Origin: Bradyrhizobium sp. CCBAU 53351
GTDB taxonomy: Bacteria; Pseudomonadota; Alphaproteobacteria; Rhizobiales; Xanthobacteraceae
Direction of reading: 5' to 3'
Assembly: GCF_015291745.1 (NCBI RefSeq)
Contig: NZ_CP030059.1
Location: forward strand, 6,599,501-6,663,500
Length of the DNA: 64,000 nucleotides
A program made the position numbers and the translations under genes. The notes under the pieces were generated by a model. That model saw only the letters and a program-made list of their open reading frames with translations. It did no database searches and was not told the DNA's origin. Position 1 is the stretch's first letter. Each line of letters starts with the position of its first letter. Positions 38,370 to 38,610 of the stretch are shown piece after piece.

Positions 38370-38521
38370 GTCCCTGTGATGCGAGGTCTGTTGGCGCAGC
38401 CTCGTGCAACTGTTCAGGTTGATAGATGGAACGGGCGGGAGACCGAGCCGGCTCACGGCGTCAAGCGCCAAGGACCCAACGGCTTCCCGCCCACTCCACC
38501 ATGACAGGATTTCGATACACA
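38370..38521 (-). ncRNA. Predicted IS110 bridge RNA
   Basis: The non-coding left end upstream of the transposase folds into two stem-loops on the minus strand. The first has an 8-bp stem GGGCGGGA/TCCCGCCC (38433-38440 with 38485-38492) plus inner pairings; the second has a CGAGG/CCTCG stem (38382-38386 with 38400-38404). Segments match the junction DNA: TGGGTCC (38472-38478, left target), GTGAGCCGG (38448-38456, complementary to the right target with one G-U pair), AACAGTTGC (38406-38414, left donor) and CACAGG (38373-38378, complementary to the right donor). The order matches that described for IS621. RNA ends are estimates. Confidence 0.7.
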
Positions 38522-38610
38522 GGGACCCAGGAGCGGCAACACTCATAGGTACGAGAGGCCCCGGCTCAGCGGCGCATCACTGCGTGTTGCGCTGCGTCCG
38601 GGGCACGAGA
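38522..38610 (-). repeat. Right fragment of the palindromic repeat interrupted by IS110
   Basis: On the minus strand this reads as the first arm and spacer of the repeat intact at 44981-45135: CGTGCCCCGGACGCAGCGCA, GAGCCGGGGCC, then a spacer ending GGGTCCC at the element. The arm itself folds on the GTGCCCCGGAC / GAGCCGGGGC pairing. Confidence 0.7.

Follow-up and report, generated by a model that had tools for sequence, protein, structure and literature searches.

The window (the whole 64,000-nucleotide stretch of DNA that was analysed) carries on its minus strand one insertion sequence of about 1.1 kb of the IS110 group, which is very probably a natural bridge-RNA system whose guides can be read from the DNA. 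On the sequence comparisons made here, the element belongs to a set of related elements in which the core dinucleotide CC replaces CT and both right-hand guides carry GG instead of AG. The CC core at which the guides meet had already been recorded in a preliminary description of this DNA, which did not remark on its being unusual.

The element has the layout of the IS110 group, with a long non-coding left end (159 nt) and a right end of a few bases [Table 1]. The encoded recombinase matches the Pfam models DEDD_Tnp_IS110 and Transposase_20, both above cut-off, scores 208 bits with the NCBIfam model transpos_IS110 (‘RNA-guided transposase’; cut-off 140), and matches IS621 and ISCro4 among the PDB structures, although IS621 is only distantly related. 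Read on the minus strand, the left junction is TGGGTC-CC-TGTG and the right junction is AACAGTTG-CC-GGCTCGC. The left end together with the core folds at -72.5 kcal/mol (z -3.41). Between positions 38362 and 38378 of the window, the right donor guide CACAGG stands directly before GGGACAGG-like bases which could be the ribosome-binding site of the gene, so that the 3' end of the RNA and the start of translation would be packed together. At the gathering threshold, an Rfam search of the whole window returned no bridge-RNA family, and its sole match lies outside the left end. This match (positions 25-315, plus strand, 109 bits) is to 5_ureB_sRNA, which we take to be a Helicobacter antisense RNA family, and possibly reflects just conserved urease coding sequence. 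The best weak Rfam match over the left end, sX15, is on the opposite strand (E 0.32, 23.2 bits versus a gathering score of 55) and was judged to be due to chance.

Table 1. Parts of the IS110-group element, with positions in the window.
Feature	Position	Strand	Evidence
Left target (LT) TGGGTC	38524..38529	-	Flank; occupied and empty sites
Left core CC	38522..38523	-	Common to both junctions and the empty site
Left end (LE), 159 nt non-coding, predicted bridge RNA	38363..38521	-	Fold z -3.41; conserved in relatives
Target-binding loop, outer stem 5' arm GGGCGGGA	38485..38492	-	Pairs with 38433-38440; compensatory changes in 12 typed left ends
Left target guide (LTG) TGGGTCC, 6 nt plus first core base	38472..38478	-	Covaries with LT across relatives
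Inner stem-loop GGCG-CTTGA-CGCC	38457..38469	-	Paired in 72/72 cells, 18 left ends
Right target guide (RTG) region GTGAGCCGG	38448..38456	-	Covaries with core and RT; supported part GAGCCGG (38448-38454)
Target-binding loop, outer stem 3' arm TCCCGCCC	38433..38440	-	Pairs with 38485-38492
Left donor guide (LDG) AACAGTTGC	38406..38414	-	AGTTG/AGTCG recurs upstream of the gene in relatives
Right donor guide (RDG) CACAGG	38373..38378	-	Form tracks core type in relatives; next G fits a handshake guide
IS110 recombinase gene, 313 aa	37421..38362	-	Pfam, NCBIfam and PDB matches
Right end / left donor AACAGTTG	37415..37422	-	Overlaps the stop codon; identical in the 9 own-genome copies having a right end
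Right core CC	37413..37414	-	Both junctions and the empty site
Right target (RT) GGCTC	37408..37412	-	Junctions and the empty site

The element has moved recently enough to leave ten near-identical copies in its own genome (8.34 Mb, two contigs). In the nine copies that have both ends, the left junction is TGGG(T or C)C-CC-TGTG and the right junction is AACAGTTG-CC-GG; all nine are inserted at TGGG(T/C)C-CC-GG. The tenth copy (L010) retains an intact left end and a nearly whole gene; it is probably immobile because the last bases of its right end are missing, the flank resuming with CCGGCTATGCG. The second contig of the same genome also contains six matches (L011-L016) to a different, distant IS110-like transposase whose identity with the query is about 28%. 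Our search of a plasmid collection gave 39 records, none of which covers 80% of the element.

The predicted insertion target of the element is TGGGTCCCGGCTC, and the empty site TGGGTCCCGGCTCGC is kept in a relative. In genome G119, the best match, of the same genus and with 90% identity over the locus, the uninterrupted joined flanks read CTGGGTCCCGGCTCGCGC, which is exactly the predicted empty target; of the other relatives with uninterrupted flanks, a few differ within the target (e.g., L223, L225, and L243). When the empty site is compared with the two junctions, the stretch shared between them is exactly two bases, CC. We found 52 more occurrences of TGGGTCCCGG in the own genome as against 16 for a control pattern read backwards, and these counts bear out the earlier proposal that the target is a dispersed repeat. 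An inverted partner, CCGGGAC, occurs within 80 bases downstream in 25 of the 30 unoccupied sites that were read (of 52), and 7 of the 9 occupied sites have it no more than 90 bases from the core; the target sites are thus at the edge of palindromic repeats. At least two kinds of such repeats are present at the target sites (CTCTGCG... and ATCTGCGCTTCGC...). The idea that the occupied repeats were chosen for extended pairing with the right guide found no support in the own genome, where occupied sites show no excess of the right-target bases CTC (4/9, versus 17/30 for those unoccupied sites, among 52, that were read; p 0.71). That IS110 elements insert into palindromic or REP repeats is known from the available text of both sources (PMC1525189; PMC11208160). 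Two Bradyrhizobium repeats, Br-REP1 and Br-REP2, appear in the accessible part of PMC5082802, and the target site is absent from the consensus sequences printed there.

The core dinucleotide is identical at both ends in all 133 junction sets collected from relatives, with 77 CC and 56 CT, where the junction patterns accept CC or CT alone and drop any other core. These sets represent 110 distinct insertions, and 18 of the 151 loci are without a complete junction pair. A search at the level of the order added 18 junction sets whose ends likewise agree in every case (17 CC and 1 CT), 7 of its 25 loci having been dropped as being without a junction call or as having an ambiguous C run. Two relatives, L255 and L262 (genome G611), have long C runs at both junctions, so that the core is not callable, and their right target guides are without an obvious match in the flank. 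The right-hand guides follow the core: the right donor guide is CACAGG (76) or CACGGG (1) in the CC sets and CAAGG (56) in the CT sets, thus tracking the core in 133/133, and the right target guide ends in GG with CC or AG with CT in all 29 left ends. In every one of the 133 junction sets, the pentamer that precedes the right core (AGTTG or AGTCG) is repeated within 130 nt upstream of the gene. For the left guides, agreement with the second core base is not required: those of the window element have T and A at that place. The base after the element's right donor guide is G. The last base of the left target is C in 76 of the 77 CC sets and 51 of the 56 CT sets. It could be argued that the true core is another dinucleotide or a longer stretch and that CC is a remnant left after repair, considering that the C run in the target TCCCGG makes the left boundary look ambiguous and that heteroduplex repair could erase differences. 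We regard this as unlikely, since the empty site TGGGTC-CC-GG holds the shared stretch to exactly two bases, a left target that does not end in C (TGGATT-CC in L249) still gives CC, and both right-hand guides carry GG facing the core as against AG in the CT elements.

The four guide segments of the preliminary description are present on the minus strand at the positions listed in Table 1, in the order known from IS621, and their matches to the element's own target and donor ends can be read directly. We then compared the target guides with the targets across relatives in a fixed register, using one alignment of 29 left ends with the columns set by the window element and the flanks of one copy each. 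The left target guide agreed with its own target at 186 of 232 positions and the right target guide at 207 of 261, and none of 100,000 permutations of the targets reached either value, with lineages treated as independent. The 15 CC rows gave 104/120 for the left guide (0/100,000 permutations) and 101/135 for the right (3/100,000), and the 14 CT rows gave 82/112 and 106/126 (0/100,000 each). In the CC rows, the outermost position of the left guide matched in 0/15 and the remaining positions in 104/105. Poor fits in this register were L209 (left, 3/8), L204, L205, and L207 (left, 5/8), and L252 (right, 4/9); L209 appears displaced by one base and was retained among the poor matches.

Because several rows share guides and some other copies fit less well, all copies were also tested: 128 loci were reduced to 26 distinct guide pairs (18 distinct left target guides) and 89 distinct insertions. 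The mean match was 6.38 of 8 positions for the left guide, compared with 3.91 for other pairs, and 7.07 of 9 for the right guide, compared with 4.02, with 0/100,000 permutations reaching either, kinship being ignored. This test included L213, L214, and L264, whose guides fit more weakly than those of the copies scored in the fixed register. A position-free test on 23 clusters, including a second distant type (group B, 23 loci) that entered this test only, gave 0/100,000 for both guides, while for L056, L207, and L209 (left guide) and L064 (right guide) the agreement with the own target does not exceed that shown by any other cluster. Position by position, the agreement extends over six bases and the first core base in the left guide, and over the core and five bases in the right guide. 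The right target guide had earlier been described as spanning nine positions, of which the eighth would be a G-U pair; of this extent, the core and the five bases next to it were upheld and the rest was not. At its last two positions, agreement across lineages was 0.24 and 0.38 with own targets versus 0.15 and 0.38 with the targets of other lineages, which is so near the background that the G-U pair is unsupported. Taken at the sequence level, these comparisons establish that the target guides change together with the targets across relatives. Relatives at other targets carry other guides at the same aligned positions, matching their own flanks, and this is the opposite of the identical loops that the preliminary description had named as evidence against its reading. 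Among the order-search loci, L271 (genome G666) has a partial left end upstream of a complete copy, cut right after the left target guide sequence GTGTGCACCC, which would fit insertion of one copy into the guide-coding part of another. Because the right flank does not continue the partial copy, the locus may instead be due to recombinational collapse or to an assembly error.

The genus search, over 265 genomes, placed close relatives of the element (window clade, at least 75% identity) in 16 of them, its own genome included. All 56 distinct insertions of this clade that we examined have an identical left target guide, and their left targets are nearly constant (T 55, G 56, G 55, G 54, T 53, C 55, followed by core CC 56 and next base G 56), one insertion (L123) lying at a sequence that departs from the target and does not fit its guide. 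The guide-target test therefore rests on the distant relatives, because the close ones hold the left guide and target constant. The right target guide varies at one position only within the clade: the next right-target base is A in 5 of the 6 insertions with GATCCGG and in 9 of the 50 with GAGCCGG (Fisher p 0.003, kinship ignored), and two of those 50 carry the form TAAGCCGG. This constancy might favor the view that the protein or the DNA structure of the repeat picks the target and that the guide-like matches reflect shared descent of ends and targets, the more so as guides and targets alike are shared among related lineages and the tree is ignored in the permutation tests. We consider this very unlikely, as guide and left target have changed together within the CC elements to GGGGTC (L196), TGGATC (L201 and L248), TGGGCC (L197 and L251), TGGATT (L249), GTGCAC (L250), and TGGTCC (L252), and the right target guide of L199 has changed along with its right target CCCGCC. 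Matching RNA loops would, moreover, be needless under a code carried by protein only.

The stems of the target-binding loop were examined on separate alignments. By our reading, one stem arm is out of place in six rows of the whole-left-end alignment A1, and the 3' arm of the outer stem in five rows of A2; the use of A2 was restricted to the inner stem. On A2, which covers 18 of the 21 left ends (without L201, L207, and L209), all 72 cells of the inner stem are paired, 11 of them changed on both sides, and two of its four pairs have two-sided changes; in L201, the inner stem has three pairs only. On A3, which covers 12 of the 21 left ends, all 96 cells of the outer stem are paired, nine being changed on both sides. 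Shuffled controls were unfavorable for the inner stem, with 123 of 500 reaching the changed-pair count and 158 of 500 the pair-type count; for the outer stem, the respective figures were 22 and 498 of 500. A per-pair stem table was discounted, as it takes the best arm found in each row and is hence not positional.

Dinucleotide shuffles of the left end (100,000; 155 nt, with the terminal donor bases excluded and guide order ignored) gave the left-target 7-mer in 2637, the right-target 7-mer in 1915, the 9-mer of the donor in 43, and its 6-mer, CACAGG, in 7589, while three guides occurred together in 3 and all four in none. Coincidence in a GC-rich region of 160 nt searched by eye, which the shortness of each guide and the frequency of CACAGG alone might suggest, can thus be set aside as scarcely credible, given the absence of all four guides from every shuffle and the independent tests across lineages (29 left ends; 89 insertions).

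We then estimated the relationships of the CC and CT elements from their transposases. The first tree (48 rows of the genus and family searches, IS621 included) has a branch, with support 100/99, that separates the CC rows from the others. A second tree, of 55 rows, has seven more CC rows and one more CT row from the order search and excludes IS621; here one change still suffices, and the branch has support 61/58 and is found in 66% of 200 bootstrap trees. Both runs warn of long branches. The drop in support is due to the CT row L254, which falls beside the CC rows, and our initial view of a single well-supported CC clade was withdrawn on this account. The CC elements are related, and their single origin is weakly supported; the bridge-RNA reading is unaffected because it is independent of a single CC origin. 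The locus L254 (genome G719, order search) is a CT-core relative with a AACAGTTG-type donor guide, its transposase standing beside the CC elements in the tree, and may be near the change from CT to CC. The direction of this change is taken from IS621 having CT, with no other basis. The protein positions 36, 44, 59, and 102 separate CC from CT rows; they were rejected as an explanation since the rows share descent and IS621, by our reading of the alignment, is without the CT-row residue at 59.

In IS621, as described in the available text of PMC11208158, the T at the second core position is almost invariant, which is explained by the main-chain amide of G63. The consulted portion of PMC11208160 reports that pairing to a CT core is strongly preferred, AT, GT, and TT having been tested. 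The EATG motif, which by our own count is the place of G63, is unchanged in the window element and in the CC group. In the passages that we consulted of the openly accessible literature on IS110 elements and bridge RNAs, no CC core was found, and a CC core accompanied by matching changes in the donor, the target, and both right-hand guides appears to be unreported within that coverage.

By analogy with IS621, the element would excise as a circle whose joined ends would form a promoter (TTGCCT-17-CATGGT in the window copy, CATGAT-like in the CC relatives), and the left end would be transcribed into the bridge RNA. The first loop would pair with the target repeat (TGGGTC-CC-GG...) and the second with the joined ends of the element itself (AACAGTTG-CC-TGTG). 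Strand exchange by the recombinase would take place at the CC core. A simple -35/-10 count, which measures consensus match only, was higher for the joined ends than for the integrated left junction in 24/24 CC rows. The best pair was TTGCCT-17-CAxxAT (CATGAT or a close variant) in 23 of these rows, and CATGGT of the window copy is a weak match. Joining the ends gave no gain in promoter score in the CT type with AGTCG ends, and a stricter consensus scan of the integrated region gave no promoter. The anatomy, the distribution of copies, the empty site, and the joint change of guides and targets were observed in the DNA itself, and the remaining steps would follow those of the known family.

Comparisons with the systems in print place IS621 among the closest to the element, as far as the available text of PMC11208160 and PMC11208158 goes. 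The two have in common the recombinase family, a long left end and a short right end, two guide loops of the same order and sense, targets in repeats, and a base after the right donor guide that fits a handshake guide. A promoter at the joined ends is proposed for both. The window element differs in having CC in place of CT at both junctions, a left target guide of six bases plus the first core base, a target in a repeat of this genus, and a recombinase only distantly related to that of IS621. The ISEc21/seekRNA elements, from the part of PMC11187229 that was accessible, are similar in having an IS110-type guide RNA from the non-coding region upstream of the gene, although ISEc21 is a different element with a different target. 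The same text reports natural reprogramming for seekRNA elements, the case being ISEc11/ISXne4 of the IS1111 group; it does not discuss the core dinucleotide, and the word ‘dinucleotide’ is absent from it. Elements of the IS1111 group share a DEDD recombinase and a guide RNA, but the latter is in the right end, downstream of the gene, with long subterminal inverted repeats (PMC11208160, available text), whereas the guide region of the window element is upstream of the gene and its right end has only a few bases. Insertion in palindromic repeats is also seen in ISPpu10, ISPa11, ISRm19, and other IS110 elements in REP sequences (PMC1525189), though these are from other hosts, and the word Bradyrhizobium is absent from the text of that source as available.

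The guide mechanism is already known from IS621 and seekRNA elements, and readable guides alone would make this element one more natural example; the CC core matters more. We consider it somewhat more probable than the contrary that related bridge recombinases in this order moved naturally from CT to CC by a concerted change of donor ends, target, right target guide, and right donor guide, so that RNA pairing sets the second core base there. If true, these recombinases would be natural CC-core bridge editors. The CC group is well populated and keeps EATG and yet uses C, and nature thereby provides a direct way to test what determines the core. The paired changes of guide and target serve as ready-made examples of natural reprogramming, and the CC recombinases may widen the choice of core for programmable recombination.
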